Source: Alphaproteobacteria bacterium (GTDB lineage: Bacteria > Pseudomonadota > Alphaproteobacteria > Sphingomonadales > Sphingomonadaceae). From it: a DNA stretch of 32,614 nt. The notes under the pieces were generated by a model. It was not told where the DNA came from. It did not search any database and saw nothing but the letters and a program-made list of their open reading frames with translations. Shown here piece after piece: positions 8,335 through 26,816 of the stretch. The stretch covers positions 1 through 32,614 of the forward strand of contig JAUIJI010000020.1 of assembly GCA_030431435.1 (NCBI GenBank), read 5' to 3'. Position numbers and translations under genes: made by a program. Position 1 is the stretch's first letter; each line of letters begins with the position of its first letter.

Positions 8335-9225
8335 TCAGGAATATTTATCCGCCTTGCGCACGCCGAAACGCATATTGCGTTCCAGATGCGCGCGTAGTGC
8401 GGCGTAGAAGGCTTCGAGGAATTCCCGTTCATGCCCGCTGCCCGGCTGCCAGCCGATCTTGCGGCAAATGGCGAGCATCACTTCGCGCATGGCTTCGGGA
8501 TTGTCTTGCCTGAGCACGCCTTCGAGCACTTGCAATTCGTGTTCGCCATAGACCTCGAGTTCCGCCTCTCCGAAACGGTATTCCTCGCTCCTGTCAGGGG
8601 CGGTGGACATGGCCTCTTCCAGCTTCACCTTTTGCGCTTCGACAACCCATGTGCCGGCGACAAGGTCTCCAGCGCGCAGATTGTCCCTGTTGAATACCGG
8701 AAAGAACAGGAAGATCATCAGCCAGACAAAGGCCGCCATGCCCATTACGCCTTCGGTATAGCCGCTGCCCAGCAGGAAGAAGGTGGGCACAAACAGCTCT
8801 ATGTCGCGCATCAGGTTGCGGGCGATCACCGCCTCCGCCGTCAGCCTGCCGCCGTTGCGCGCGGCCACGCGAATGCCCAGTGCGCGCTTGCCCGGTGTCG
8901 CGCCTTTTGGCCCCAGTTCGAAGAACAGGAAATAGCCATAGCGGGCGAGGAAGAAGAGCATGATGATCATCACCACCAGGAACTCTCCGGCGGGGCCCAA
9001 CTCGTCACCTGTGCTGGCATCAAGCATGCCGAAACCGGCGAGGGCCAGTGCCAGGAAGATCGCGAAGGCCCCGAAGAAGATGATCAGCAGGTCGAGGATA
9101 ACGGCTCCGGCGCGGGCGCCGCGGCTGGCGATGGTCAGCGGCAGGGCGAGGCCTTCGGGCGTTACCAGTTCGCGCTGGCGCTTTTTCTGCCCGAGCTGGA
9201 TCCGCGAGGCGACGGTGGTGCTCAT
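8335..9225 (-). CDS. RDD-family membrane protein
   Basis: A 296-residue protein whose region ~30-200 is an RDD domain: an Arg in the first helix segment (SRGARAGAVILD), KGATPGKRALGIRV in the middle and DNLRAGDLVAGTWVV at its end, with about four membrane segments. A ~85-residue charged cytosolic tail follows and is longer than in minimal RDD proteins. RDD proteins are mostly uncharacterised; some act in ion or solute transport. The gene is last in the six-gene MoxR operon. Its ATG at 9225 overlaps the TGA of the SpoIIM-like gene (ATGA, 9222-9225). The frame is open for ~200 codons upstream, but that part is antiparallel shadow within the SpoIIM-like gene. Confidence 0.88.
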   Translation of the reverse strand: MSTTVASRIQLGQKKRQRELVTPEGLALPLTIASRGARAGAVILDLLIIFFGAFAIFLALALAGFGMLDASTGDELGPAGEFLVVMIIMLFFLARYGYFLFFELGPKGATPGKRALGIRVAARNGGRLTAEAVIARNLMRDIELFVPTFFLLGSGYTEGVMGMAAFVWLMIFLFFPVFNRDNLRAGDLVAGTWVVEAQKVKLEEAMSTAPDRSEEYRFGEAELEVYGEHELQVLEGVLRQDNPEAMREVMLAICRKIGWQPGSGHEREFLEAFYAALRAHLERNMRFGVRKADKYS

Positions 9226-10283
9226 GATCGGGCCTCGCCGACATGGTCGCGCGGACGGGGGGCGAAGGCGAAATAGGTGATCCAGAAGAATAGCATGGCC
9301 CCGCCGATGGCAAAGCGCCCTGCGGTTGTGGGAACCAGCTGGCGGGCATAGCCTTCGAGCAGTCCGGCGATCACCAGCATGATCACACAGCCTGCCATGA
9401 CCTGCGCCGCGCGCCTGCCAGCGGATGCGGCTGCGGCCAGCACGCTCTGCTTGCCGGGGAAGGCCATCGAACGGCCGATATGCATCCCCGCCGCGCCGGA
9501 CAGCAGGATGGCGAAAAGCTCCGTCGTGCCGTGGACAGACAGCCACCCGGCAAAGTCCACGCCCAGCCCGGCATCGGCAAACAGCCACAGCATCGCGCCC
9601 AGCAGCGCCATGTTGTAAACCAGCAGCAGCAGCGTGGGCACGCCGAAGCAAAAGCCCAGCGCAAAGGCCAGGATGCAAACGCCGGTATTGTTCGAGAAGA
9701 GATAGGCAGCAAAGACCGTTAGCCCCTCTGCGTCTTCGGTGCCTTTCAAAGTCTCGGCCAGTTCTTCGGCAGATGCGCCGGGTTGCCGGCCCCCTGCCAT
9801 GCCGGGTGACACCAGCGAGAAGTACCACTCGCGATCATTGGCGACGAGGATCCAGCCAACGGCGGTTCCCGCGACCATCACGAACAGGGCAATGCAGATA
9901 TCCAGCCAGATATCGCGCACAGATGCGCTCCACCCGCCGAGCAGGAAATGCCGCAGCCACGCGAACAGGCCGGTGCGCGGGCCATAGACCTGGAACCACG
10001 CGCGCCGCACCAGCGAATCCAGATAGGCAAGCGTTGCCGCATCGAGCGATGTCTCGCGCGCCACGGCGAGGCTGGATGCAGCCTTGCGATAGAGTACCGG
10101 CAGTTCGAGCAGGTCGTCGTCGTCAATGCGGCCCGGGCGGTTCTTCTCCAGCGCCTCGACGATCTGCTCAAGCCGCTGCCAGTCCACCTCGCGCTGCAGG
10201 CGGAAGCGGTCCGAGCGCAAGGTTGCCGCGGTAATCGCAGCGGGCGGATTGATCTCATTGTGGCCGAAGAGGTTGAGTGCCAT
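9222..10283 (-). CDS. SpoIIM-like (DUF95) membrane protein
   Basis: A 353-residue protein with a ~110-residue soluble N-terminus (coiled-coil-like around 20-60) and about six C-terminal membrane helices. SNNTGVCILAFALGF followed by LSVHGTTELFAILLSGAAG is the conserved core of the stage II sporulation protein M/DUF95 family, whose HGxxE motif resembles that of some membrane metallo-enzymes and ABC-2 components. In non-sporulating bacteria it is consistently found next to RDD, DUF58 and MoxR genes, as here. Start at ATG 10283, only 2 bp after the DUF58 stop. The biochemical role is unknown. Confidence 0.88.
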   Translation of the reverse strand: MALNLFGHNEINPPAAITAATLRSDRFRLQREVDWQRLEQIVEALEKNRPGRIDDDDLLELPVLYRKAASSLAVARETSLDAATLAYLDSLVRRAWFQVYGPRTGLFAWLRHFLLGGWSASVRDIWLDICIALFVMVAGTAVGWILVANDREWYFSLVSPGMAGGRQPGASAEELAETLKGTEDAEGLTVFAAYLFSNNTGVCILAFALGFCFGVPTLLLLVYNMALLGAMLWLFADAGLGVDFAGWLSVHGTTELFAILLSGAAGMHIGRSMAFPGKQSVLAAAASAGRRAAQVMAGCVIMLVIAGLLEGYARQLVPTTAGRFAIGGAMLFFWITYFAFAPRPRDHVGEARS

Positions 10284-10285
10284 GA

Positions 10286-11629
10286 TTACCCGACCGCCTC
10301 CATCCGCTTGGCTTCAAGATAGCGGTCTATCAGGCGGCAGCCGATCGTATCATGCGGCGCCTCGATCACGTCGACGCCCATCTGCCGCAGGCGTTGCAGC
10401 ACGATGGCGCGCTGGTGAGCGAGCGAGGCGGCAGAAACGGCAGTGGCGATATCCGAAAGCGTCTCCGGCTCTTGCGCCGCGAGCGCATCGAGCTCGGTAT
10501 CGACCATGGTCACGAAGATCACCAGGTGATGACGCACCAGCCGCGAAACGCTTTCCACCATCAGTTCGGCGGAGGTGGTATCGGTGAAATCGGAAAACAG
10601 CACGATCAGGCTGCGGCGTTGCAGCTTGGCTGTCAGCGTCGCCAGCGCCAGCGTGAAATTCGGCTCCTTCGGCACATAGTCGAGCTCTGCAGCAGCGGTC
10701 TGCAAGCGGTGGAAGGCGCGTGTATCGGTGACGAAGGGCGTGATCAGGCTGGGCGTGTCGGCAAAGCCGAAGAAGGACACGCGGTCGCCGCCCTTCAGCG
10801 CCACATAGCTGGCGGTGAGCGCGGCTGTGACCGCGCGGTCGATGCGCGGCAAGCCGTCGACCGGCTCGCACATGGATTGCCCGCAATCGAAAGCGAATAT
10901 GATCTGGTTGTCGCGTTCGGCCTCGTTCTCACGCGCGTAAAGCGCCGTATGGCGGGCCGATGCCTTCCAGTCGATCCGGCGGCGGTCCATGCCCGGCTCG
11001 TATTCGGACAGTGCTTCGAACTGCGTGCCTTCGCCGCGAATGCGCCGCGCGATCAGGCCGAACTGGGCATCGCGCAGGAAGGCCTGCAAGGTGGGCGAAC
11101 GCGTTGGCGACAAATCAGGCCATACGCGCAGCTCGTCCTCCAGCGGACGGTACACCTGCCGCACGCCCAGCCCCAGCGGGCCGCTCCAGCGCATCCACAC
11201 GCCATGCATTTCGCCGATCCCGCGCCGCACCGGCGTGATTTCGCCCGTGCCAGAGAAGACCGGCTCACTTCCGCTGGCAGACAGCGTGAAATGGGCAATT
11301 CCACTTTCACCCAGCCGCGGATCGAAGCCGAGCGCCACTTCCGGCGCGCGGGCATTAGCATGCCGGTCAATGTCAGCCAGCACCTTGATCCGGGCGGGCT
11401 GGCCAACCTCGGCATCGCTCGGCACCAGCACCTGCATGTCGCGCAGCGGACCCGCCAGCCACCCATCGACCAGCATCACCAGCAGCAGCGCCAGCGCGGC
11501 CGCAGGCGCGACCACCCAGGCTGACGGCGCAGTGGCTGCAATCACCACCGCAGCAGGCGCCAGCAAGCCAAGGATGACCAGTATCCACGCCGATGGGACA
11601 ATGGGGAAGGCGGGCAGATTGAGTTTCAC
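10286..11629 (-). CDS. DUF58 protein with von Willebrand A-like domain
   Basis: A 447-residue protein with two membrane helices near the N-terminus (about 10-55), a beta-rich region (~75-190), and the DUF58 core with YEPGMDRRRIDWKASAR around residue 205. A vWA-like domain follows: FAFDCGQSM is the MIDAS-type strand and loop, with DxGxS in place of DxSxS, and FSDFTDTTSAE lies further on. Family members partner the MoxR ATPase encoded next to them, by analogy with MoxR-vWA metal-insertion or chaperone pairs. GTG 11629 is chosen because it gives the family N-terminus (VKLNLPAFP). The GGGAGGGGG before it belongs to the hairpin element at 11639-11720, so the repeat appears to provide the ribosome binding site. 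Confidence 0.9.
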   Translation of the reverse strand: MKLNLPAFPIVPSAWILVILGLLAPAAVVIAATAPSAWVVAPAAALALLLVMLVDGWLAGPLRDMQVLVPSDAEVGQPARIKVLADIDRHANARAPEVALGFDPRLGESGIAHFTLSASGSEPVFSGTGEITPVRRGIGEMHGVWMRWSGPLGLGVRQVYRPLEDELRVWPDLSPTRSPTLQAFLRDAQFGLIARRIRGEGTQFEALSEYEPGMDRRRIDWKASARHTALYARENEAERDNQIIFAFDCGQSMCEPVDGLPRIDRAVTAALTASYVALKGGDRVSFFGFADTPSLITPFVTDTRAFHRLQTAAAELDYVPKEPNFTLALATLTAKLQRRSLIVLFSDFTDTTSAELMVESVSRLVRHHLVIFVTMVDTELDALAAQEPETLSDIATAVSAASLAHQRAIVLQRLRQMGVDVIEAPHDTIGCRLIDRYLEAKRMEAVG

Positions 11630-11638
11630 GAAGCTTGC

Positions 11639-11720
11639 CCCCTCCCGCTTGCGGGAGGGGCAGCACCGGCGAAAGCCTGCGCGAAGGCCCACCCCCGACC
11701 CCTCCTGCAAGCGGGAGGGG
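11639..11720. repeat. REP-like composite palindromic element A
   Basis: Two GC-rich hairpins flank a 38-bp core. The left hairpin (11639-11660) is perfect: arms CCCCTCCCGC and GCGGGAGGGG around TT. The right one (11699-11720) is the same palindrome around AA with one C-to-T change. The core contains AAGGCCCACCCCCGA; GGCCCACCCC recurs in the element at 31464-31584. It fills the only sizeable gap (11630-11738) of the MoxR operon, between the moxR-like and DUF58 genes. Confidence 0.8.
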
Positions 11721-11738
11721 GGAATGTCGCGCAACGCG

Positions 11739-12701
11739 TCAACGCGGCGCCTCGGTCTGTTCGACCAGATCTGCTACCAGTTCCTCGATCTGCTTGCCCT
11801 CGATTTCGGCAGCTGGCGAGAGCAGCAGGCGGTGGCGCAGACTTGCGGTGGCGAGCGCCTTCACATCGTCAGGGATGACATAGCCGCGCCCGTGCAGCGC
11901 GGCGCGGGCGCGGGCGGAATTGGCCAGCAACACGGCCGCGCGCGGCGAGGCTCCGCTGGCGAGTTCGGGGCTTTCGCGCGTCGCGCGCACGAGGTTGACA
12001 GTGTAATCGATGATTTCCTTCGCCAAAGTCACCGTGCCGACGGCTTCCTGTGCGGCAGTGATCCTTGCCTGATCTGCCACCTGCACGATGCCGAAATCGT
12101 CAAGGCGCGGCGGGCCTGACATGTTGCCGAAACGCTCGACAATGCGCGCTTCTTCCTCGGCACTGGGATAAGGCACCAGAAGCTTGAATGAAAAACGGTC
12201 CAGCTGCGCTTCGGGCAGCGGATAGACACCCTGGTTCTCGATCGGGTTCTGCGTGGCGACAACCATGAAGTGATCACCCAGCGAGTGGGTTTCGCCATCC
12301 AGCGTCACGCGGCGTTCCTGCATGGCTTCGAGCAGGGCAGCCTGTGTCTTTGGCGGTGTGCGGTTGATCTCGTCTGCCAGCAGCAATTCGCAGAAGATCG
12401 GCCCGCGCGTCAGGGTGAACTGGCTGGTCTGGAAGTTGAACAAGTTGGAGCCAAGGATATCGCCCGGCAGCAGGTCCGGCGTGAACTGGATACGCCCGAA
12501 ATCAAGACCAGTCGCGCGGCTGAAGCACTGGGCAAGGAAGGTCTTCGCCGTGCCGGGCGGGCCTTCGAGCAGCACGTGCCCGCGTGAGATCAGCGCGATC
12601 AGCAGGTGCTCGACAGTCTCGTCCTGTCCCACGATGGCCTTGCCCACCTCGTCGCGGATCGACTGCGCCAGCGCGCGCGTCTCGTCCAGTGTCATGCTCA
12701 T
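11739..12701 (-). CDS. MoxR-family AAA+ ATPase
   Basis: A 320-residue cytoplasmic AAA+ protein. Walker A is GPPGTAKT, Walker B is LLADEIN (with the [17 protein letters not shown] continuation diagnostic of MoxR), sensor 1 is ATQNP, and the lid domain follows from ~220. MoxR ATPases act as chaperones that remodel or metallate partner proteins, usually the adjacent DUF58/vWA protein. Its ATG at 12701 overlaps the TGA of the DUF4350 gene (ATGA, 12698-12701); a second ATG at 12695 is possible. Genes around it encode only membrane or envelope proteins, so its target is likely at the membrane. Confidence 0.95.
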
Positions 12702-13999
12702 CGCTTCAGCATCCTTTCGATAGCTTTCAATGCGCTTGCCGCGCGTATCATCTCTGCCGGTCCGCGTGCATTGCGCAGCGCGTGGGCCTTTTCGGAAAAT
12801 GTCGGACCTGCGATTCCCTGCCGTGCCAGCGCGGCATCAATCGCCGCCTCGCGTGTCTCGGGATCGAGAGTGCGGATATTCTGCGTTTCGGCAATGCGCC
12901 CGGCAATCACGCTGGCGTATGGCGCGCCGAGCAGGTGCCAACGCCGCGCGCGCTCGATCAGCGCCGCGCCATTGCGCGCCAGTTGGGTCTTGCCGAGGAC
13001 ATGGACTTGCTCTTCCGCCACAGGCGGGCCGAAACGGCGGAACGCACGCCAGCCGATCACGAGGAAGACCAACAACAGGCACAGGGTCGCGGCCAGGAAG
13101 GGCGGGCGGAAGGCCAGCGTCAGCAGGTTCTCCGCAGAGCCAAGGCCGGGCAAGGTCATGTCGAACACGATGGAGTAATCATACCCTTCCATCGTTGCAT
13201 CGATCAGGCTGATGGCAGCCTGTGCCCGCGTCCTGTCAGACAGGCCATAGTTGTTCATCAGGTCCGGCTCGGCAACGATCACCAGCGGATACAAGCCTTC
13301 ATCCTGGCCGTATTCTTCGTCCTCAGAAAAGCGCACGCCTGCCGCATCCGCGAGGTAGGGGTGATAGCCGTTGCGGTTCCAGTATCCCGCCAGCAGGTCA
13401 CCCTCGCTATCCGAGATAATCGGAAACAGCTGCCTTTCGGGCAGGTCGGTAATAGCCTGGATGAAATCCTCATCGGGCAGGTCGCCTGAATATCCCAGCC
13501 CGCTCCAGCCCCGCGTCTTGCCTTGCGACAATTGCATCGGCTCGAAATCCTCGACTTGCTCGAACCAGAACGGAGTGAATCCCCGCCCCAGCTGCACCCA
13601 GTCGGACGGGTTTTCGCCAGCAACCTGATCGGGCAAAGGCGCGCTGTACCATTTGGGCAGGATCACCAGCGTCGGGCCGATATAGCGCCGCAATTCCATC
13701 AATTCGTCAAGCTCGGCCGGGTCTGTGTTGAGGCTGGGCGTGAGGACAAGCAGGACCTCATTCTCGCGCACCAGCCTGTCACGCGCGACATCGACCGAGT
13801 AACCGCGCAGTTCGAGCAGTTCGGCCAACGCCGAAAAACCATCGAGGGCGTTCGAATTGACATGTGCTGTCCCGGCCCGCTCGCGCTCACCTGTCCAGCC
13901 GGCGCCGATGGCATAGAGGAACAGCAGGAAGGCGCCGGAGCCCACGAGCAGCACCAGCACCAGCTTGCCGACACTGAACGGGTTGCTCCTGCGGCTCAC
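12698..13999 (-). CDS. DUF4350 membrane protein
   Basis: A 433-residue protein with one membrane helix at ~11-33, a large domain (~40-295) that should lie outside the cytoplasm, a second helix (~300-320), and a cytoplasmic tail. The domain resembles DUF4350, a GATase-like fold: [24 protein letters not shown] matches its start, and the repeated hydrophobic strands (VLLVLTP, PTLVILP) fit. Function is unknown; the family travels with MoxR, DUF58 and DUF4129. The start is GTG at 13999, overlapping the DUF4129 TGA in a GTGA junction. Confidence 0.85.
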
Positions 14000-14640
14000 G
14001 TGCGGGCCTCGCGATACCCAAGGGCGAACTCCGAATAGGCTCTGCGAGCGGCTTGCCAGTCGTCCGCCGAAAGGCTGGTGAGCGCGAACAGGCTGCGCTC
14101 GACCCGTTCGGCAATCGTGCCAAAGGCCTTGCGGGCGCTTTCCGGCAGCGCAGGCAGGACGGAAATCTCACGCGCCGTGCTGGATGGTTCGATAAGGTCT
14201 GGTCGGATCTCGGCGATCTGGCCGACAGAGCGCATCAGCAACAGGTGCGTTGCCTCGTCATAGCGGCCTTCGCCCGCCAGCCGGTCGGCTTCTTCCAGCA
14301 GTTCGAGCGCCTTGGCTTCTTCGGGGACCCAGGCTGTTTCCTCGATTGTGCGCTTGCGGCTGCCGAAGCGGGTGGGGTCGATTATCCGATAGATGGCATA
14401 GATGATCAATCCCGCGCCGATCGCCACCAGCACCCAGAAGATTATCGGCCAGGCCGCACCGAAAACTGTCGCCACCGGTTCGAGGATGTCGCCGAGGAAG
14501 TCGAACAGGCTTTCCAGCCAGTCCGGCGTTTCGGGCGGGGTTGCATCGGGAAGGTCGATCGGCTGGAACTGGATATCACCGTCGGAACGCAGCGCGTCCC
14601 AATCGTCGGCAAAATCGCTATCCCCCGCTAACCTCGTCAC
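13996..14640 (-). CDS. DUF4129 membrane protein
   Basis: A protein of about 214 residues with a single membrane helix (WPIIFWVLVAIGAGLIIYAI, about 70-90) and a C-terminal DUF4129-type helical domain (~115-205: EEADRLAGEGRYDEATHLLL). In other MoxR clusters this family sometimes occurs fused to transglutaminase domains; no such domain is present here. It is the first gene of the six-gene operon. GTG 14640 gives the most plausible N-terminus, although the frame continues to a TTG at 14676. No convincing SD is visible at either. The divergent halogenase starts 73 bp away. Confidence 0.82.
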   Translation of the reverse strand: MTRLAGDSDFADDWDALRSDGDIQFQPIDLPDATPPETPDWLESLFDFLGDILEPVATVFGAAWPIIFWVLVAIGAGLIIYAIYRIIDPTRFGSRKRTIEETAWVPEEAKALELLEEADRLAGEGRYDEATHLLLMRSVGQIAEIRPDLIEPSSTAREISVLPALPESARKAFGTIAERVERSLFALTSLSADDWQAARRAYSEFALGYREART

Positions 14641-14713
14641 AATTTGCTTGGTGGCACGGCTTTGCCGGTGAAGCAACGACTTCGCATTGCGTCAGCGCGA
14701 TTGTGGTTCCAAT

Positions 14714-16291
14714 ATGCCCCGCATGACGCACTACAATTCGGGCGAATATTTGCCGCAGGTCCCGACTGAAGAACGGGTTCGCAAGGTCCTGGTGGTCGGC
14801 GGCGGATCGTCGGGCTGGATGGCCGCGACAATGCTCGCCACGGCCTTGTCGAAAGAGATTTCGGTGGAGCTGGTGGAAAGCGATGCCATCGGCATCGTGG
14901 GCGTGGGCGAGGCCACGATCCCGCCGATTCAGCAGTTCAACCGCTTTGTGAAGCTGGACGAGGCCGCCTTCATGGCGAGCACGCAGGGCACCTTCAAACT
15001 CGGCATCGAGTTCCACAACTGGGGCCGCGTGGGAGACAGGTACCTTCACCAGTTCGGCGCGGTCGGTCGCGAGATCGACCAGCTCGTGAAGCTGCATCAC
15101 TGGTGGGCGCTTGGCCGGCTGGCTGGCAGCGAAGACTATCCCCAATACCAGGACCTGTTCGTTGCCCGCGCCGCTGCGCGCGAGGATCGCTTCCGGCCGT
15201 CGGGGCCGCCGAGAAACGCGCTGCCCAACCGCTATACCCATGCCTATCATTTCGACGCGCATCTCTACGCGGCGCATCTGCGCAAAATCGCGGAATCGCG
15301 CGGGGCGAAGCGCCACGAGGGGCGCGTTGTCGATGTCGAAAAGGACGGTGAAACCGGCTTTGTCACCGCGGTTGTCATGGAAGACGGGCGCAGGCTGGAG
15401 GCGGACTTCTTCGTCGATTGCTCGGGCTTCCGCAGCCTGCTGCTGGGTGGCGCGCTGGAAGAGCCTTTCGAGGACTGGAGCAAATATATCCCCTCGGACC
15501 GCGCGCTGGCTGTGCCCAGCAAGCGGCCTGAAGGAGATATCCGCCCCTATACACAGGGCATCGCGCATCCCGTGGGCTGGCAATGGCGCATCCCGTTGCA
15601 GCATCGCACAGGCAACGGCCACGTCTTTGCCAGCGCCTTCTCCTCGGAAAGCGAGGCCGAGGAGCGGCTGCTGGCAAATCTGGAAGGCGAGGCGCTCGAT
15701 ACGCCGCGACTGATCAAGTTCACCACCGGGCGGCGCAAGCGCACATGGGTGAAGAACGTGGTTGCGCTCGGCCTGTCATCGGGTTTCCTCGAACCGCTCG
15801 AATCGACGTCGATCCACTTCGTGCAATCCTCGCTGGAGCGGCTGCTCGACTATTTCCCGACGCGGGCGATGGATGCCTCCCTGCTCGAGGCCTACAACAT
15901 GCGCACCGAGCAGGAATGGACCGATGTGCGCGATTTCATCGTGGCGCATTACCATTTGAGCGAGCGCGATGATTCGGAATTCTGGCGCTACACCCGCAAC
16001 ATGGACGTTCCGGACAGCCTGAAGCACATTATCGAATTGTGGCGCGCGCGCGGCATCCTCGACATTTCGGGCGGGCATCTGTTCCAGCTGGGCAGCTGGT
16101 CATCGGTGCTGATCGGCCAGCGGGTGATGCCGGGCGGGGTGCATGCCCTGGCAGACCGGGCGGACCCTGCCTATGCCGCTGCCGAGGTGCGCAAGATCAT
16201 GGCCGAATGCCGCGCGGCAGCCTCGCAGATGCCGAAGCACACCGACTTCATCGAGAGTTATTGCAAGGCCGTAGCGCCGGAAATGGCCTGA
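14714..16291 (+). CDS. Flavin-dependent (tryptophan-type) halogenase
   Basis: A 525-residue FADH2-dependent halogenase family protein. The FAD-binding GxGxxG is VVGGGSSGWMAA (~27-38). GVGEATIP follows at ~63-70, and the lysine of GTFKLGIEF (Lys95) matches the catalytic Lys79 of PrnA. WQWRIP (289-294) is the WxWxIP family signature. FLEPLEST (358-365) contains the Glu-Ser pair equivalent to PrnA Glu346/Ser347. The enzyme should therefore make HOCl or HOBr at the flavin and direct it to a substrate. No partner flavin reductase, TonB receptor or biosynthetic genes are adjacent, so the substrate is unknown. ATG 14714 and ATG 14723 are both possible starts. It converges on pheA with a 6-bp gap. 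Confidence 0.93.
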   Translation: MPRMTHYNSGEYLPQVPTEERVRKVLVVGGGSSGWMAATMLATALSKEISVELVESDAIGIVGVGEATIPPIQQFNRFVKLDEAAFMASTQGTFKLGIEFHNWGRVGDRYLHQFGAVGREIDQLVKLHHWWALGRLAGSEDYPQYQDLFVARAAAREDRFRPSGPPRNALPNRYTHAYHFDAHLYAAHLRKIAESRGAKRHEGRVVDVEKDGETGFVTAVVMEDGRRLEADFFVDCSGFRSLLLGGALEEPFEDWSKYIPSDRALAVPSKRPEGDIRPYTQGIAHPVGWQWRIPLQHRTGNGHVFASAFSSESEAEERLLANLEGEALDTPRLIKFTTGRRKRTWVKNVVALGLSSGFLEPLESTSIHFVQSSLERLLDYFPTRAMDASLLEAYNMRTEQEWTDVRDFIVAHYHLSERDDSEFWRYTRNMDVPDSLKHIIELWRARGILDISGGHLFQLGSWSSVLIGQRVMPGGVHALADRADPAYAAAEVRKIMAECRAAASQMPKHTDFIESYCKAVAPEMA

Positions 16292-20099: not shown

Positions 20100-20903
20100 T
20101 TACCCTTCGCCGCGCGTTGCCGGACTGCGCGCCGGGGCAAGCAGGGCGGGGAGCAGTTCGACGTCGCGCTTGGCAAGCGGATCGTCCACCCCGATTGTGA
20201 TGTCTGCCTGCGCCACATCGTCACGATATGTGCCGTGCAAATGATCCCAGATGGCGATGCCGCTGGACCAGTTGCTGTCCATCTCGGACAGGTCCTGGCT
20301 GTGGTGGATGCCGTGCATCTTAGGTGTCGTTGTGATGCGGCTGAGGGCCTTGTCCCACCCCTTGGGCAGCCTTGTGTTCGAATGGTGGAACAGCACGGAC
20401 ATGACGAAGAAGAGCTGCCAGCCTGCCAGCATGCGCGGGCTCACGCCAGACACGCGCACCTGCACCAGCCGCCATGGCAGGGAAACGAGCATATCGAGGA
20501 AATGGAAACGCACGGCGGTGCTCATGTCCATGTCCGGATCGACATGGTGCACGCGGTGGAAACGCCACAGGAACGGCACTTTGTGCGTGGCAATGTGCCA
20601 GAGGTAGAAGCCGTAATCCATCGCGAGGAAGGCCGCCGCCTTGCCGATCAATCCGCCGCCCAGCCAGTGCTGGATGCCGCGCTTTTCACTGGCGTTGCGC
20701 CGGGCGATGGCCTGTGTGGTGGGGGCCTCGCTCGCCATGATCATCGCCTGGCAGCTGGCCCCCATGGCAAGGTTGCGCAATGTTCGCGGGATCACCTCGT
20801 GCTTCTGTCTGCGCAGCGGGCGTTTGCGTTCCGCAAGCGCAATCGCGCCCACCGCACCAAGGGTGACGGCAAGGCCTGCCAGCTTGAGGAATCGCGACGC
20901 CAT
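20100..20903 (-). CDS. Sterol desaturase/fatty acid hydroxylase-family protein
   Basis: A 267-residue integral membrane di-iron oxygenase. Histidine boxes of the family are present: WHIATHK with FHRVHHVD, then FHHSN, then MHGIHHS. Hydrophobic helices lie at the N-terminus, ~95-115 and ~150-170. Family members hydroxylate or desaturate lipids, sterols or carotenoids; the substrate cannot be read from sequence. ATG 20903 is preferred over a TTG at 20930. It is divergent from the TIGR04282 transferase gene with ~55 bp between, so it may belong to the neighbouring arsenic-related cluster, but nothing proves it. Confidence 0.88.
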   Translation of the reverse strand: MASRFLKLAGLAVTLGAVGAIALAERKRPLRRQKHEVIPRTLRNLAMGASCQAMIMASEAPTTQAIARRNASEKRGIQHWLGGGLIGKAAAFLAMDYGFYLWHIATHKVPFLWRFHRVHHVDPDMDMSTAVRFHFLDMLVSLPWRLVQVRVSGVSPRMLAGWQLFFVMSVLFHHSNTRLPKGWDKALSRITTTPKMHGIHHSQDLSEMDSNWSSGIAIWDHLHGTYRDDVAQADITIGVDDPLAKRDVELLPALLAPARSPATRGEG

Positions 20904-20958
20904 AGCGGCCCGATCATGGGGGTTCGCCAAAGGCCCGTCCAGCGTATAGGAAATGGCG

Positions 20959-21546
20959 ATGACCCAAGCCCGCCAGCCAAAGATTGCCCTGTTCGCCCGC
21001 TATCCCACGCCGGGACAGGCCAAGACGCGGCTGATCCCGGCGCTGGGAGAGGAAGGCGCGGCGCAGCTTCACCGCAAGCTAGTGGAGCGTACCATCGCCA
21101 CCATCCGCGAGGCTGGCGTTCCCTTTGCCGTCTGGTTCACCGGAGCCTCGCGAGAGGGTTTTGCCGCGTGGCTGGGGGATGATGTCGAACTGTTCGAGCA
21201 GGGCGAGGGAGACCTGGGCGAGCGCCTCGCGCGCGTGCCTGCACCTGCCATCCTGCTCGGTGCCGATTTGCCGGACTTGCCTGCGCTGTATCTGCGGCAG
21301 GCAGTCAGCGGCCTTGCTGCCAGCCACACGGTGATCGGCCCGGCCTTCGATGGCGGATATTACCTGCTCGGCTTCAACAAGCCGGTGCCCTTCGTGTTCA
21401 GCGATATGCCCTGGGGCGAGAACACGGTGATGGAAGAAACGCTCGCCCGCCTTGCCGATCACGAGCTTTCCACGCTGATGCTCAAGCCGCTGGGCGATTG
21501 CGATAGGCCCGAGGATCTCGTCCATTTCCCCGGCCTTGTCCCGTGA
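20959..21546 (+). CDS. TIGR04282-family glycosyltransferase (DUF2064), arsenosugar-associated
   Basis: A 195-residue GT-A-like protein. The nucleotide-binding start IALFARYPTPGQAKTRL, the GADLPDLP acidic motif and GPAFDGGYYLLG are diagnostic of TIGR04282/DUF2064, first named rSAM/selenodomain-associated transferase 1 and now annotated as an arsenosugar biosynthesis glycosyltransferase. AGGA (20948-20951) lies 7 nt before ATG 20959, which is why that start is preferred over ATG 20953. Its TGA overlaps the ATG of the next gene (TGATG). The two transferases are nearly always neighbours. The exact sugar donor and acceptor are not established. Confidence 0.92.
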   Translation: MTQARQPKIALFARYPTPGQAKTRLIPALGEEGAAQLHRKLVERTIATIREAGVPFAVWFTGASREGFAAWLGDDVELFEQGEGDLGERLARVPAPAILLGADLPDLPALYLRQAVSGLAASHTVIGPAFDGGYYLLGFNKPVPFVFSDMPWGENTVMEETLARLADHELSTLMLKPLGDCDRPEDLVHFPGLVP

Positions 21547-22268
21547 TGTGCATTTCCATCGTCATTCCCATGCTCAATGAGGAGGCTGCGCTGCCACGGC
21601 TTTCAGAGGTACTGGGTGCGCTCGATCCGAAACCGCATGAGGTGCTGTGCGTCGACGGCGGCAGCACCGATCGCAGCATGGAAATGGCTCGCGACTTTGG
21701 CTGGCGCATGGTGGAAAGCCCGCGCGGGCGAGGGGTGCAGATCAACACCGGGGTCGAAGTCGCGACCGGCGACTATGTGCTGGTCCTGCACGCAGACACT
21801 TACCCGCCCATCGATGCCATGCAGGTGATTGCAGAAACGCTGGCGGACCCGAAGATTGCGCTCGCCAGCTTCACGCCGGTTATCAAGGGGCCGGAGAAGA
21901 CCCGCTGGGGCACCACGGCGCACAATTGGGCCAAGACCTGGTACGCGCCCTTGCTGTTCCGTCCGCATTTGTTCGCGCGCGGCGTGCGCCTGCTGTTCGG
22001 CGATCACGGCATGTTCTTCCGCCGCGACCAGTTCCTGGCAGTCGGCGGTTGCGACCCTTCAGCGCGAGTGATGGAGGAGGCAGATATCTGCGTGAAACTG
22101 GCTGAGCTCGGGCGGGTGAAGCTGGTGCCGCGCCGCATCGAAACCAGTGACCGGCGCATTGCCGAATGGGGCGCGCTCAAGGCCAACTGGATTTACCTGA
22201 AAGTCGGTTTCCTGTGGGCTATGGGTGTGCGGCAGCGGCTTGAGCGGCTGTATCCTGACGTTCGTTAG
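21546..22268 (+). CDS. TIGR04283-family GT2 glycosyltransferase, arsenosugar-associated
   Basis: A 240-residue family 2 glycosyltransferase. The N-terminus SIVIPMLNEEAALPRL, the strand ending EVLCVDGGSTD and the LHADTYPP DxD-like site are standard, and GRGVQINTG plus GDHGMFFRRDQF are typical of TIGR04283 (formerly rSAM/selenodomain-associated transferase 2). It overlaps its TIGR04282 partner by one base. A GTG at 21543 is an alternative start. Its last 50 bp overlap the 3' end of the convergent SDR gene. With the ArsM-type gene nearby, a role in attaching sugar to a methylated arsenic compound is the best reading. Confidence 0.92.
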   Translation: MCISIVIPMLNEEAALPRLSEVLGALDPKPHEVLCVDGGSTDRSMEMARDFGWRMVESPRGRGVQINTGVEVATGDYVLVLHADTYPPIDAMQVIAETLADPKIALASFTPVIKGPEKTRWGTTAHNWAKTWYAPLLFRPHLFARGVRLLFGDHGMFFRRDQFLAVGGCDPSARVMEEADICVKLAELGRVKLVPRRIETSDRRIAEWGALKANWIYLKVGFLWAMGVRQRLERLYPDVR

Positions 22269-23268
22269 GAGCTGCGGGAAGGTATCCGGCAGAAATGCCG
22301 TAAGCAATCAGCCGGTCGAGCCATGCATCATCAGTGGGCGCGCATTCCAGACCGGTCAACGCACGGAACTTCGCATCGTCAAAGCGCGGGTTGCGGGTGA
22401 AATAGCTCCCGAAAGTCGCCACCATGCGGCTCCCCACGCGCAGTTCGATGGCGCTGAGCGCTGCGGGATCGTATTCGCTTGGGCGGACGACCAGCGGGTC
22501 AGGGAAATGCGCCACCCGCGCCACGCCATGCGCCAGCGCGGCAGAGGGAAGCGGGCTGGCGGCCGTCAGGTGATAGTATCCGCCATCACCTTCATCCATC
22601 CGCTCGGCAATGCGGGCGATGCCTTCTGCCACATGGTTGATGGGCACAAGGTCCAGCGTCGAGGCCGGATCGGCGGGAAAGGTGCTCACCTTGCCGCGCG
22701 CCATCAGGCGGAAGACGTTGCACAATGAAGGGAAGTCGCGGATCTGCCCGGTCTGCGAATGGCCCAGTGTGATCGAGGGGCGGGCAATGGCGAAGGGCAA
22801 TCCGCTTGCCGCCACCAGCGCCTCGCCGCGCGCCTTGCTTGCCTCGTAATTGTTCGCGAATTGCGTGCCTGCCGGCACCGGGCCTTCCGCAATCACGCCT
22901 TCGGCAATCCCGCAGACATAGGCGGTGCTGACATGCAGGAAGCGTGCGCCTGCCGCCTTGGCAAAGTCCAGCGCATTGGCGGTGCCCAGCACATTGTCGC
23001 GCTCAAGCTCCTCCTCCGGCGCGTCGAAGGTGAGCGAGGCAGCGCAGTGGATGACAAGGTCGATGTCATGCTCCGCCGGGGCGAGCCCCATCAGCGGCAA
23101 GGTGACATCGCCCGGGACAATGCGCGCCACCGGCACATCCGCGCCATCATTGCCGCGCACCTCTCGCGTCCGACGCACCATCGCAGTCACTGCATGTCCG
23201 CTCGCCACCAGGCGCGCGCAGACCTCGCCGCCGATCAGCCCGGCGGAGCCTGTGACCAGTATGTTCAA
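22219..23268 (-). CDS. NAD(P)-dependent SDR/thioester-reductase-like protein
   Basis: A 349-residue extended SDR. Rossmann motif LVTGSAGLIGG (4-14), STAYVCG (catalytic Ser/Thr near 114-115) and YEASK (Tyr141, Lys145) are all present, with IHCAASLTF and RPSITLG typical of the NAD-binding-4 or acyl-reductase-like branch. The substrate is unknown; in this context it might process a nucleotide sugar or a polyketone-like intermediate. The start is TTG 23268, which gives NILVTG directly and overlaps the ArsM TGA in a TTGA junction; a tandem TTG precedes it. It is thus likely coupled to the methyltransferase. Its 3' end runs 50 bp into the convergent glycosyltransferase gene. Confidence 0.87.
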   Translation of the reverse strand: MNILVTGSAGLIGGEVCARLVASGHAVTAMVRRTREVRGNDGADVPVARIVPGDVTLPLMGLAPAEHDIDLVIHCAASLTFDAPEEELERDNVLGTANALDFAKAAGARFLHVSTAYVCGIAEGVIAEGPVPAGTQFANNYEASKARGEALVAASGLPFAIARPSITLGHSQTGQIRDFPSLCNVFRLMARGKVSTFPADPASTLDLVPINHVAEGIARIAERMDEGDGGYYHLTAASPLPSAALAHGVARVAHFPDPLVVRPSEYDPAALSAIELRVGSRMVATFGSYFTRNPRFDDAKFRALTGLECAPTDDAWLDRLIAYGISAGYLPAAPNERQDTAAQAAAAHP

Positions 23269-24317
23269 CAACAGGGTGCCGCTTCGCTCTTGGCCGGGTT
23301 GGCATCACTCTGGCCGAAAGGAACAGCCGTGCCGCAACCGGGGAAGACGCCGTAATGCATGTCAAAATTGCCGATGAAGTCGAAATGCGGTGCAAAGCGC
23401 GTTTCGGCCAGCATCAGCCATGAATTGCCGCAAACCGGGAAAATCCGCCCGCGTTCAATGGCGTGGTGATCGTCGAGGTGGAACATCTGCTCCTCGCCCG
23501 GCACGGTGCCCTTGTAGACCACCGCCTGACCATAATCCTCGCATTGTGGCTCCAGCCCCGCCAGCTTGAACAGGCGATAGGTGGCAGAGACGAAGGAGAT
23601 GCCTTCCAGCTTCTTCGCCACCTCGGCATCGTTGATGCCCAGCGGGCGGTCCGTGACGAGGCGGGGGTCCGCAAAACCGGCGCGCTTCGCCAGCATGTCG
23701 AAATCGCCCCAATAGAGCGCGCCGGACAGGCACTCGCCGTGCAGCACGGGATCGTTGAGCAGATGCGCAGGCACGCGCCGATCGGCATAGACATCGGAGA
23801 AATAGAGCTCTCCGCCCGGTTTCAGCAGGCGGTGCGCGGCGCGGAACACCGCCTCCTTGTCAGCCACAAGGTTGATCACGCAGTTGGAGACGATCACGTC
23901 GAAGCTCTCGGGCTCAAGGCCCAAATCGTCGAGTTTCTCGATATCGCCTTCGACGAAGCGGACATTGCGGTAGCCGAAGCGCTCGGCATGCCAATCGAGG
24001 TGCTCATTCGCGATCGCAAGCTGCTCGGGTGTGGCATCGACGCCGGTCACACTGCCATTCGCGCCAACCATCTGCGCCAGCAAATAGGCATCCTGCCCAG
24101 CGCCGGAACCCAGATCGAGCACGTTGCAGCCCTCAACCGCCTGCGGGACGACGAGGCCGCAGCCGTAATAGCGCGCCTTCACCTCCGGATGGACATTGGC
24201 GAGCGCGTCGAGAATTGCGGCGGCGGGTGCTTCGAGCGTACAGCAGGCGTCTGTGCGCAAATCCGCGCTGCCGCCCAGCACCTTGCCGTAATAATCCTGC
24301 GAATTTTCCAGATTCAT
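23265..24317 (-). CDS. arsM: ArsM-type arsenite S-adenosylmethionine methyltransferase
   Basis: A 350-residue class I methyltransferase. SAM site: VLDLGSGAGQD (~66-76), GVDATPEQL and FVEGDIEKL. The cysteines used by ArsM enzymes to bind As(III) have counterparts here: DACCT (Cys25-26), YYGCGLV (Cys53), SNCVINL (Cys146) and GECLSGAL (Cys196). The C-terminal region (Cys259, Cys296, Cys328) and the final Cys349-Cys350 pair add more thiols. It should methylate arsenite stepwise to MMA and DMA, the usual entry to arsenosugars. ATG 24317 has AAGGGA ~12 nt upstream. It is divergent from the flavoprotein gene and coupled to the SDR. The family call is strong; activity is inferred. Confidence 0.9.
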   Translation of the reverse strand: MNLENSQDYYGKVLGGSADLRTDACCTLEAPAAAILDALANVHPEVKARYYGCGLVVPQAVEGCNVLDLGSGAGQDAYLLAQMVGANGSVTGVDATPEQLAIANEHLDWHAERFGYRNVRFVEGDIEKLDDLGLEPESFDVIVSNCVINLVADKEAVFRAAHRLLKPGGELYFSDVYADRRVPAHLLNDPVLHGECLSGALYWGDFDMLAKRAGFADPRLVTDRPLGINDAEVAKKLEGISFVSATYRLFKLAGLEPQCEDYGQAVVYKGTVPGEEQMFHLDDHHAIERGRIFPVCGNSWLMLAETRFAPHFDFIGNFDMHYGVFPGCGTAVPFGQSDANPAKSEAAPCC

Positions 24318-24405
24318 GAAACCAGCCGTCCCTTGTGTGCGAATGTTTGCAGCATAGACAGGAACACTGTCGCTTCGCACGGCTTTTCGGTTACCTTGGG
24401 GTCCA
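24318..24405. promoter_or_regulatory. Divergent promoter region with nested inverted repeats
   Basis: This 88-bp gap separates the arsM start from the flavoprotein start. It contains a perfect dyad GACAG-N5-CTGTC (24357-24371) lying within a wider inverted pair, GTGCGAA (24337-24343) and TTCGCAC (24374-24380). Such symmetry suggests an operator shared by both genes. No clear TTG-N16-CTA promoter is visible, and no regulator gene is adjacent. Confidence 0.4.
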
Positions 24406-25821
24406 ATGGATTATTCGCATGACGTGATTGTGATTGGCGGCGGGGCCGCTGGCCTGACGGCGGCGGGCGGCTGCGCGCTGTTCGGGCTGCAGGTGGCGCT
24501 GATCGAAAAAGGCGCGATGGGCGGCGAATGCCTCAACAATGGCTGCGTGCCGTCCAAGGCGATCATTTCCTCAGCCCGCCGTGCGGCAGAAGCGCGCGAG
24601 GAGAAGCGGCTGGGTGTGCAACTCGCCGCGCCGCAAGTCGACTGGATGGGCGTGCACAAGCACATCCACGATGCCATCGCCGCGATTGCTCCGCATGATT
24701 CGCAGGAACGATTCGAGGCCATGGGCTGCGAGGTTCTGCGCGACCATGCGACGATTTTGGATCGCAACACGGTGGAAGTCGCAGGCCGCAAGCTTACCGC
24801 GCCGCGCATCGTGATCGCCACCGGTTCCGAGCCTTTCGTCCCGCCGATCGAGGGCATCGGCGATGTGCCTTACCTCACCAACGAAAACCTGTTCGAACTG
24901 ACCGAGCAGCCTGAACACCTGCTGATCGTGGGGGGCGGGGTGATCGGCATGGAAATGGGGCAGAGCTTCCGCAGGTTGGGCAGCGAAGTCACCATCCTCA
25001 ACCCCGGCCCGCTTATGGGGCGCGATGATCCCGATTCCGTCGCGCTGGTGAAAGCGCGCATGGAGCAGGAGGGCGTGCGCTTTGTAACCGGCAAGGCGGT
25101 GAAGGCAGGTGGTAGCATCGGAGCGATCACGCTGGAGACCGATAGCGGTGAGCGGCTTACCGGCTCGCACCTGCTTCTCGCAGTCGGGCGAAAGGCGCGC
25201 GTATCGGGTTATGGACTGGAGAACACCGGCATCAAGCTGGGACGCAATGGCATCAAGGTCGACGCACGCCGTCGCACGTCGGTGAAGAACATCTATGCCA
25301 TCGGCGATTGCCGCGAAGGCCCGCGGCTGACGCATGTTTCTGGCTATGAAGGTTCCAACGTCGCGCTCGAAATCGCCACCGGTTTGCCGACCAAGGTCGA
25401 TTGGCGCGCGCTGCCATGGTGCACCTACACCTCGCCCGAAGTCGCGCAGATCGGCATGACCGAGGCCGAAGCGCGCGAGGCGCATGGCGATGCCATCACG
25501 ATCCAGCACGAAGGCTTTGACCACAATGACCGCGCCGTTGCCGAAGGCGCGGCGGCAGGCCATATGAAGCTGGTGATGAAGGGCAAGAAAGTGCTCGGCG
25601 CCAGCGTGGTGGGCGAGAATGCGGGAGACCTGCTGCTGCCGATCAGCCAGATGATCACCGGCAAGGCTTCCAGTTTCGCGCTCGGCAGTGCCATCATCGC
25701 CTATCCCACCCGTTCGGAAATCACCAAGGCGCTGGCTTTCAAGGCGTGGGAGCCAACCGTGTTCGGCTCTCTACCGAAAAGTTATGCCCGTCTGGTGGCG
25801 AAGTTGCGTAGGCTCTTCTGA
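24406..25821 (+). CDS. Class I pyridine nucleotide-disulfide oxidoreductase (mercuric reductase-like)
   Basis: A 471-residue flavoprotein of the lipoamide dehydrogenase/mercuric reductase family. FAD motif VIVIGGGAAGLTAA (7-20), redox disulfide GGECLNNGCVPSK (Cys42, Cys47), NAD(P) motif LLIVGGGVIGMEMG and second FAD motif YAIGDC are all present. It lacks the N-terminal metal-binding domain and C-terminal Cys pair of MerA, and the usual His-Pro-Thr..Glu motif reads AYPTRSE (Tyr near 433), so the proton-relay His is absent. It is therefore neither a standard lipoamide dehydrogenase nor MerA. Position between arsM and a radical SAM gene suggests reduction of an arsenical or sulfur intermediate. 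Its TGA overlaps the next ATG by one base. Confidence 0.9.
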   Translation: MDYSHDVIVIGGGAAGLTAAGGCALFGLQVALIEKGAMGGECLNNGCVPSKAIISSARRAAEAREEKRLGVQLAAPQVDWMGVHKHIHDAIAAIAPHDSQERFEAMGCEVLRDHATILDRNTVEVAGRKLTAPRIVIATGSEPFVPPIEGIGDVPYLTNENLFELTEQPEHLLIVGGGVIGMEMGQSFRRLGSEVTILNPGPLMGRDDPDSVALVKARMEQEGVRFVTGKAVKAGGSIGAITLETDSGERLTGSHLLLAVGRKARVSGYGLENTGIKLGRNGIKVDARRRTSVKNIYAIGDCREGPRLTHVSGYEGSNVALEIATGLPTKVDWRALPWCTYTSPEVAQIGMTEAEAREAHGDAITIQHEGFDHNDRAVAEGAAAGHMKLVMKGKKVLGASVVGENAGDLLLPISQMITGKASSFALGSAIIAYPTRSEITKALAFKAWEPTVFGSLPKSYARLVAKLRRLF

Positions 25822-26816
25822 TGGCAACACGCAGCAAAAGCCGCAACGCGCCCGCGGGGCCATCGCCTTTCGCGATTGCAGACAAGCAGCCGCTGAAACG
25901 GGGAAAGTTCGCTGATCCGGATGTGACTGCAGATGGCTCGCAGCGGGCCACGGTGGCGCTCGACCATCTCGACACGCTGTGGCTCAACACCGGCACGCTG
26001 TGCAACCTGGCTTGCGCCAGCTGCTATATCGAAAGCTCGCCTACCAATGATGCGCTGGTCTATCTGACGGCAGAGGAAGCGGCGCGCTTCTATGACGAGA
26101 TCGCCGCGTCAGGACGCACAGTGCGCGAGATTGGCTTCACCGGCGGCGAGCCGTTCATGAACCCGCATTTCCTCGCCATGCTGGAGGATGCGCTGGAGCG
26201 CGGCCACGAGGCACTGGTGCTGACCAATGCGATGAAGCCGATGCGCCGCCATGAAGAGGCGCTGCTGGCGCTGAAGGAACGCTTCGGCGGCAAGCTGACG
26301 CTGCGCGTTTCCATCGATCACCACACGCCGCAAGTGCACGAAGGCGAGCGCGGGCCAAACAGCTGGCAACCGATGATCGATGGTTTGCAGTGGCTCTCGG
26401 CAGAGGGCTTTTCCATCGCCGCAGCAGGCCGCTCGCTGGCGGGCGAGGACATGGCTGCGGCGCGCACTGCCTATGCCGCGCTGTTTGGCCGTGAAGGCAT
26501 CGCCATCGACGCGGGCGACCCGGCGCGGCTGGTGCTGTTCCCGGAAATGGACGAGAGCGCCGACGCGCCCGAGATCACCACCGCCTGCTGGGGGATACTC
26601 GGCAAATCGCCAGCCGATGTGATGTGTTCGAACAGCCGCATGGTCGTCCACCGCAAGGGAGAGGAGCACGCGCGCGTCGTCGCCTGCACCCTGTTGCCCT
26701 ATGCCGATGGCTTTGACCTGGGTGAAACGCTGGCCGAAGCGGACCGCGAAGTCTCCCTCAACCATCCGCATTGCGCGCGCTTCTGCGTGCTTGGCGGGGC
26801 GAGCTGTTCGGCCTGA
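25821..26816 (+). CDS. Radical SAM protein with C-terminal cysteine-rich domain
   Basis: A 331-residue radical SAM enzyme. The [4Fe-4S]-SAM motif is CNLACASC (Cys61, Cys65, Cys68), followed by FTGGEPFMNP (GGE at 108-110). Past the barrel there are six further cysteines (256, 269, 289, 318, 322, 329); the last three, in HCARFC and SC, resemble a SPASM/twitch-type auxiliary cluster site. Canonical ArsS, which adds 5'-deoxyadenosyl to dimethylarsenite, has CNLxCxHCH and a different C-terminus, so this is a different subfamily. It is coupled to the flavoprotein (TGATG), which could be its reductant. The reaction is unknown; an arsenosugar role is inferred from neighbours only. Confidence 0.88.
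   Translation: MATRSKSRNAPAGPSPFAIADKQPLKRGKFADPDVTADGSQRATVALDHLDTLWLNTGTLCNLACASCYIESSPTNDALVYLTAEEAARFYDEIAASGRTVREIGFTGGEPFMNPHFLAMLEDALERGHEALVLTNAMKPMRRHEEALLALKERFGGKLTLRVSIDHHTPQVHEGERGPNSWQPMIDGLQWLSAEGFSIAAAGRSLAGEDMAAARTAYAALFGREGIAIDAGDPARLVLFPEMDESADAPEITTACWGILGKSPADVMCSNSRMVVHRKGEEHARVVACTLLPYADGFDLGETLAEADREVSLNHPHCARFCVLGGASCSA

Follow-up and report, generated by a model that had tools for sequence, protein, structure and literature searches.

A candidate organoarsenical biosynthetic cluster of Sphingomonadaceae in which an unnamed radical SAM family takes the place of ArsS

The window considered here is the whole of contig JAUIJI010000020.1 (32,614 nucleotides; assembly GCA_030431435.1), designated C147, from a draft genome of the Sphingomonadaceae of 2.90 Mb in 163 contigs, 90.5% complete; G codes designate genomes and L codes loci. 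It contains a block of six genes that we read as a candidate organoarsenical biosynthetic cluster. On the plus strand, a CofC-like nucleotidyltransferase of the TIGR04282 family (20953-21546) precedes a family 2 glycosyltransferase of TIGR04283 type (21543-22268; Glycos_transf_2). The minus strand carries an ArsM-type arsenite methyltransferase (23265-24317, with a possible longer GTG start at 24380) and, downstream as its partner, a short-chain dehydrogenase/reductase (SDR) of the thioester-reductase/NAD_binding_4 type (22219-23271; PF07993, 115 bits). The block ends on the plus strand with a flavin adenine dinucleotide-dependent disulfide oxidoreductase (24406-25821; Pyr_redox_2 and dimerisation domains), hereafter the flavoprotein, and a radical S-adenosylmethionine (SAM) enzyme with a CX3CX2C motif (25821-26816), which belongs to an unnamed family, here called A, and stands in the slot of ArsS. 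Divergent from TIGR04282, the gene of an OlsE-like FA_hydroxylase family protein (20103-20930, minus strand; PF04116, 84 bits; OlsE model 77.5 against a cut-off of 475) is probably an accessory member of the cluster.

The six open reading frames (ORFs) are intact where the earlier note on this DNA had placed them, and its three overlaps were located exactly as written: TGATG at 21544-21548 between the TIGR04282 stop and TIGR04283, TTGA at 23265-23268 on the minus strand, and TGATG at 25819-25823. To the author of that note, the coupled pairs looked like a single functional unit; the set does stay together in the genus, but its ++ -- ++ orientation makes it three transcription units and not a single operon. 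The inventory was right for the six genes; it omitted the FA_hydroxylase gene and gave no indication that a radical SAM enzyme other than ArsS is encoded here. The divergent gap of 88 bases between ArsM and the flavoprotein (24318-24405) is a putative promoter region, in which no strongly conserved shared motif stood out when it was aligned from 35 loci. Twenty other ORFs of the window, three of which have no Pfam match, were scanned against Pfam (E up to 1e-8), and the result bore out the claim that arsR, arsC, arsB and acr3 are missing from the window: no ArsR, ArsC, ArsB or Acr3 family was found, and a plain ars resistance operon was rejected on this ground.

Almost from end to end, the family profile of the methyltransferase (alignment A1, 8 sequences) matches crystal structures of ArsM, namely 5evj (423 bits) and 4fr0 (375 bits). 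Cys24, Cys52, Cys145 and Cys195, the first methionine not being counted, are invariant in A1 and correspond, counted on the alignment, to residues 44, 72, 174 and 224 of 4fr0 (CmArsM), which we take to be the catalytic cysteines of that enzyme. ArsM is described with four conserved cysteines in PMC8552651 as well (papers are cited here by accession and from excerpts of each). As a separate observation, ArsM-like frames with one in-frame TGA are found in G222, G224, G236, G138 and G295; these are perhaps the selenoprotein ArsM fusions named by NCBIfam, or broken genes.

Of greatest interest in the cluster is the ArsS slot, which on our best reading is occupied by a family of radical SAM proteins that has no name. 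The window enzyme is 331 residues long, and in the alignment of 43 A and B sequences (A4) it shares nine invariant cysteines, three in CX3CX2C and six more. Family B, found in other ArsM loci, is homologous to A over nearly the whole length (hhalign probability 100%, 297 columns), and no listed NCBIfam model reaches its cut-off with proteins of either family. The identification of the window enzyme as ArsS was rejected, TIGR04167 giving 58.1 bits against a cut-off of 300, over the core only, with no DUF3641 match; for comparison, the ArsS of L127 has both. A TIGR04167 search of G000 at E 1e-20 likewise gave no match. The best-scoring named family, Rv1681 (NF049973), was also rejected, since its match is confined to the core domain (residues 52-228) and falls far below the cut-off (91.6 against 380; relatives in L032, L084 and L078 score 107.6, 94.2 and 90.5).

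The radical SAM cores are nevertheless related to that of ArsS (hhalign 98.3% over 175 columns for A, 96.9% for B), and the three families have in common CX3CX2C and a similarly spaced C-terminal cysteine pattern, which the full-length alignment retains through to ArsS for B and less well for A. AlphaFold2 models of A and ArsS (predicted local distance difference test scores of 93.1 and 83.6) agree in the succession of their main elements, and their best structural neighbours (BlsE, SkfB, SuiB and EpeE) are of one kind; this similarity between models is expected of the superfamily and is not specific.

The cluster is conserved in the genus. ArsM, the radical SAM enzyme and TIGR04282 all exceed the threshold in 34 of 37 same-genus genomes, the present one included, and the remaining three have none of them; G024 is counted as positive although its ArsM match lies in two pieces. 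The joint absence is weak for G004 and G028, neither draft having a good Ppx orthologue, and G016, 99% complete, is the firm case, with Ppx present and neither a cluster gene nor the far-side flank in a stretch of 20 kb. All 30 short genus loci, that of the window among them, combine TIGR04283, ArsM and the flavoprotein, and 29 of the 30 also have the SDR. The usual flanks are a Ppx/GppA gene on one side and DUF2147 and lysine-decarboxylase-like genes on the other, with a DUF2339 gene between the latter two in the window. In G185 (L177), from another genus of the family, the cluster is missing and the lysine-decarboxylase-like gene follows Ppx after about 300 bases; G070 has Ppx and no cluster in 19 kb. 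Conversely, the six genes are found without these flanks in Citromicrobium (L114), Blastomonas marina (L148) and an uncultured member of the Sphingomonadaceae (L158). We infer that the genus is that of Aurantiacibacter rhizosphaerae, because the locus of this species (L137) and the same-genus L015 have an identical ArsM/flavoprotein gap sequence in the alignment and L137 groups among same-genus rows on the radical SAM tree. As a natural minimal version, L135 of Blastomonas sp. CACIA14H2 holds only the flavoprotein, ArsM and SDR in 21 kb.

Beyond the genus, we compared 80 named ArsM loci, the best 80 of at least 586 confirmed relatives, so that the proportions are not those of a random sample, and many of the flanks end at contig ends. 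Neighbourhoods were scored by profiles on all ORFs because a simple gene caller was noisy on the pooled genomes, and the radical SAM kinds were assigned by profiles built from the sequences obtained. The examined flank contained ArsS in 26 loci, B in seven, A in six (L109 cut by a contig end; L137 and L152 from genomes already counted in the genus) and none in 41; no locus had more than one of the three kinds there. TIGR04282, TIGR04283 and the flavoprotein accompany ArsS in 21, 20 and 22 of 26 loci, A in six of six each, as does the SDR, and B in three, four and three of seven. In G057, a B genome, TIGR04282, TIGR04283, ArsM and the radical SAM gene share a strand and follow one another, flanked by genes for DUF547, VTT and flavoprotein; the compact B clusters of G048, L096 and L098 resemble it, and L125, L130 and L157 have ArsM and B with the transferases absent from the examined flank. 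Radical SAM searches gave three B genes (G048, G057, G159), all within a few kb of ArsM and TIGR04282. The coupling of the ArsM homologue to TIGR04282, TIGR04283 and a radical SAM gene, which the earlier note had pointed out, is also seen in ArsS-containing clusters elsewhere.

The same survey bears on plain detoxification, in which ArsM would methylate arsenic, the flavoprotein would supply reductant and the transferases would be bystanders. Such a role would agree with the four cysteines kept in ArsM, with the 41 of 80 ArsM loci that have no radical SAM gene in the examined flank, many of these flanks being short, and with L135, where only the flavoprotein, ArsM and SDR of the set are present. 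It is rendered improbable by the lack of arsR, arsC, arsB and acr3 families among the scanned window genes, by the retention of the full set without its usual flanks in L114, L148 and L158, and by TIGR04282, which tracks the radical SAM slot (30 of 39 ArsM loci with a radical SAM gene against 2 of 41 without). Two further genes recur near ArsM: an oxidoreductase/SelD-type fusion in 13 of the 80 loci (for example L117:11090-13369, a member that passes TIGR03169) and a permease-like gene in 10, whose L112 member resembles a sulfate permease below the cut-off.

The review PMC12159101 attributes the C-As bonds of arsinothricin and of bacterial arsenosugars to SAM-dependent enzymes and names two radical SAM reactions with arsenic: the adenosylation of arsenic by ArsS in oxo-arsenosugar biosynthesis, and the transfer of a 3-amino-3-carboxypropyl group in arsinothricin, for which ArsL is held responsible (PMC12159101, PMC8552651). 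The closest known counterpart of the window is the ArsM-ArsS cluster, exemplified by SsArsM and SsArsS of Synechocystis (PMC8552651) and found here in the 26 loci, mostly of Proteobacteria. Common to both are a four-cysteine ArsM, TIGR04282, a glycosyltransferase of TIGR04283 type (in the window just under the family cut-off), the flavoprotein and a single radical SAM gene, whose product has CX3CX2C and a C-terminus rich in cysteines. In contrast to these clusters, the window has another radical SAM family instead of ArsS (TIGR04167, DUF3641), the SDR and FA_hydroxylase in addition, and no nucleoside phosphorylase in the cluster. In the excerpts of PMC8801600 and PMC13077682, arsenosugar labels serve as annotation only, and in the open-licence literature we found no study on the function of TIGR04282 or TIGR04283 or on family A.

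The second reaction raises the question of whether the chemistry is that of ArsL, as in the arsQML arsinothricin cluster of Burkholderia gladioli, where ArsL is likewise paired with ArsM and makes a C-As bond (PMC8552651). However, that cluster encodes a two-step pathway inside an ars operon and is described with no sugar-nucleotide or glycosyl transferases (PMC8552651), partners that in the window would suit a sugar better than an ArsL-type product. ArsL is also reported with only three conserved cysteines in 428 residues (PMC8552651), against nine invariant ones in 331 here. Set against this description, the window enzyme does not look like ArsL, and arsinothricin-type chemistry appears very unlikely.

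The nucleotidyltransferase is a member of TIGR04282 (184.9 bits against 134). Among solved structures, 3cgx, a putative nucleotide-diphospho-sugar transferase, is the sole relative with an E value of 0.01 or lower; the predicted role of the window protein is the activation of a sugar phosphate. The flavoprotein has the redox motif GECLNNGC. Its identification as mercuric reductase was rejected: the MerA model gives 309.8 bits against 454, and the vicinal cysteine tail, a hallmark of MerA, is absent from the sequence. The FA_hydroxylase gene is the same neighbour of TIGR04282 in L040, L041, L137, L152, L114 and L109, and a relative also adjoins TIGR04282 in G200 (L084); it does not adjoin the cluster in L063, L064, L179 and L158, and in L148 a relative lies about 5 kb away. 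In L084, a gene for an AhpD-like peroxidase-related protein (TIGR01926; 9521-10093, minus strand) lies between the flavoprotein and the FA_hydroxylase.

Taken together, the balance inclines slightly towards an organoarsenical biosynthetic cluster of arsenosugar or arsenolipid type. This proposal starts from the gene set, its joint conservation, the homology of ArsM and the mutual exclusion of ArsS, A and B in the examined flanks of the 80 ArsM loci, and the chemistry would run as follows. ArsM, judging from its homology and conserved cysteines, would make methylated, probably dimethylated, As(III). The radical SAM enzyme, from its position and core homology, may have an ArsS-like mode of action and would add a SAM-derived group, most likely 5'-deoxyadenosyl, to arsenic. 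Some further enzyme would then remove adenine, after which TIGR04282 would turn the arsenoribose phosphate into an activated nucleotide sugar, to be transferred to an acceptor by TIGR04283, as the two families suggest. The flavoprotein might keep arsenic or thiols reduced, and the SDR and FA_hydroxylase might tailor the sugar or lipid; these last roles are guesses.

Several observations weigh against this proposal, beginning with the rejection of the window enzyme as an ArsS. The weakest joint is the removal of adenine. An MTAP-type phosphorylase is present in the flank of 7 of the 26 ArsS loci, inside the B cluster of L096 and beside radical SAM A in L079, a locus without ArsM, but a search for MTAP (TIGR01694) gave no match in the present 90.5% complete draft. 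The C-terminal regions taken alone have no significant profile match to ArsS (1.7% for A, 12.6% for B), for which reason the common cysteine pattern of this region is only suggestive. The TIGR04283 match, nearly full length, lies just under the cut-off (173.3 bits against 182). ArsM falls below the NCBIfam cut-offs of PRK11873 (169.5 against 263), the arsinothricin ArsM (141.6 against 500) and AsSugarArsM (94.1 against 400), so that its assignment is supported by the profile match to ArsM structures and the four invariant cysteines and not by curated scores.

The distribution of the families counts on the same side. Of 241 sampled alphaproteobacterial genomes, 71 have radical SAM A/B, 92 TIGR04282, 93 TIGR04283 and 27 ArsM; a second ArsM model gave 23 genomes, all counted already. 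ArsS exceeded the cut-off in two genomes (G072, G187), and the absence of A/B from both speaks for the proposal; a third, weak TIGR04167 match (G220) overlaps the radical SAM A gene itself. A/B and TIGR04282 occur together in 69 of the 71 genomes (Fisher p 2e-37, without phylogenetic correction) and, with TIGR04283, again in 69, of which only 22 have a detectable ArsM. The three families, at times with the flavoprotein, are thus a module that usually occurs without detectable ArsM. An association of radical SAM A/B with ArsM persists (22 genomes have both, 49 have only A/B and 5 have only ArsM; p 4e-9). The distance between ArsM and the radical SAM gene is at most 10 kb in four of the 241 genomes (G000, G008, G159, G200). 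The radical SAM gene and TIGR04282 are within 6 kb of each other in 11 of the 69 (G000, G008, G132, G138, G140, G159, G197, G200, G215, G228, G294); among these, ArsM is nearby in four, elsewhere in the genome in one (G138) and undetected in six.

It is accordingly conceivable, if doubtful, that the module, with or without the flavoprotein, makes an arsenic-free compound and that ArsM and SDR are a detoxification pair that merely lies inside it. The 47 of 69 module genomes without detectable ArsM, a number that the second ArsM model leaves unchanged, would be explained in this way, as would the tight TIGR04283-TIGR04282-radical SAM run of L078, which has no ArsM, and L135, with the flavoprotein, ArsM and SDR on their own. 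Of 35 radical SAM A loci with no ArsM in the stretch covered, five (L083, L182, L187, L188, L200) have a flavoprotein relative nearby; seven of the 35 had been fetched for the closeness of radical SAM and TIGR04282, which biases the TIGR04283 count of 7 of 35, and one of these seven is among the five. On the other hand, TIGR04282, ArsM and the radical SAM gene adjoin one another on a common strand in G057, G048, L096 and L098, and in G159 they are neighbours in divergent orientation. ArsS, too, is accompanied by these TIGR04282, TIGR04283 and flavoprotein families, and ArsM-free genomes could use methylarsenicals from outside. The ArsM linkage is moreover scattered on a quickly built tree with 70 radical SAM proteins, on which the short loci L043 and L045 were hand-labelled as ArsM-linked from genome matches: it occurs in the Aurantiacibacter-Citromicrobium group, L158, G200 and family B, and requires at least four changes by parsimony. 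Repeated recruitment of ArsM is likely but not proved: taken alone, the well-supported branches require no more than one change among the A rows linked to ArsM, and the ArsM-anchored scan was the source of 7 of the 10 B rows. If true, it argues for a functional link, though not for arsenic as the sole substrate. As a side observation, ArsM-free radical SAM A genes often stand in a conserved gene run (L049, L050, L051, L054, L199 and others), two members of which we take to be O-succinylhomoserine-sulfhydrylase-like (10 of 35 loci) and GTP-cyclohydrolase-like (8 of 35).

The organoarsenical reading of the earlier note is thus upheld in part, in the coupling of the genes and not in the arsenic specificity of the families. 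TIGR04282 and TIGR04283 by themselves fail as the arsenic sign that they were taken for: ArsM was detected in only 25 of the 92 TIGR04282 genomes. Homologues that do not co-occur with ArsM, which that note had named as counter-evidence, accordingly exist, alongside those that do. It can be hypothesised that the module is older and not arsenic-specific, and that ArsM may have been recruited to it. In a broader and more tentative form, which we hold at somewhat less than even confidence, A/B with TIGR04282 and TIGR04283 would constitute a widespread alphaproteobacterial pathway that puts a SAM-derived ribosyl group on an acceptor. This would be arsenic in some lineages, whereas most would use a different acceptor or methylarsenic taken up from outside; ArsM would have been recruited, probably repeatedly, and the C-As chemistry would be the work of a radical SAM family separate from ArsS and ArsL. 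Should the organoarsenical proposal prove true, it would add a further radical SAM family of C-As bond formation, with A in Aurantiacibacter and its relatives and B in Nitrosomonas and Alteromonadales, widen the range of possible organoarsenical makers and offer a clean comparison of substrate choice among radical SAM enzymes. In either case, the database label 'arsenosugar biosynthesis glycosyltransferase' should not count as evidence of arsenic metabolism, because the same radical SAM-TIGR04282-TIGR04283 module is present in many genomes without detectable ArsM.

Elsewhere in the window, consecutive genes for a MoxR-type AAA ATPase, DUF58, DUF4350, SpoIIM and RDD proteins occupy 8335-14000 on the minus strand. 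A tryptophan-halogenase-type flavoprotein (14687-16291, plus strand; 567 bits) is encoded beside a prephenate dehydratase gene, and L040 and L041 likewise have a gene of this type on that side of the cluster.

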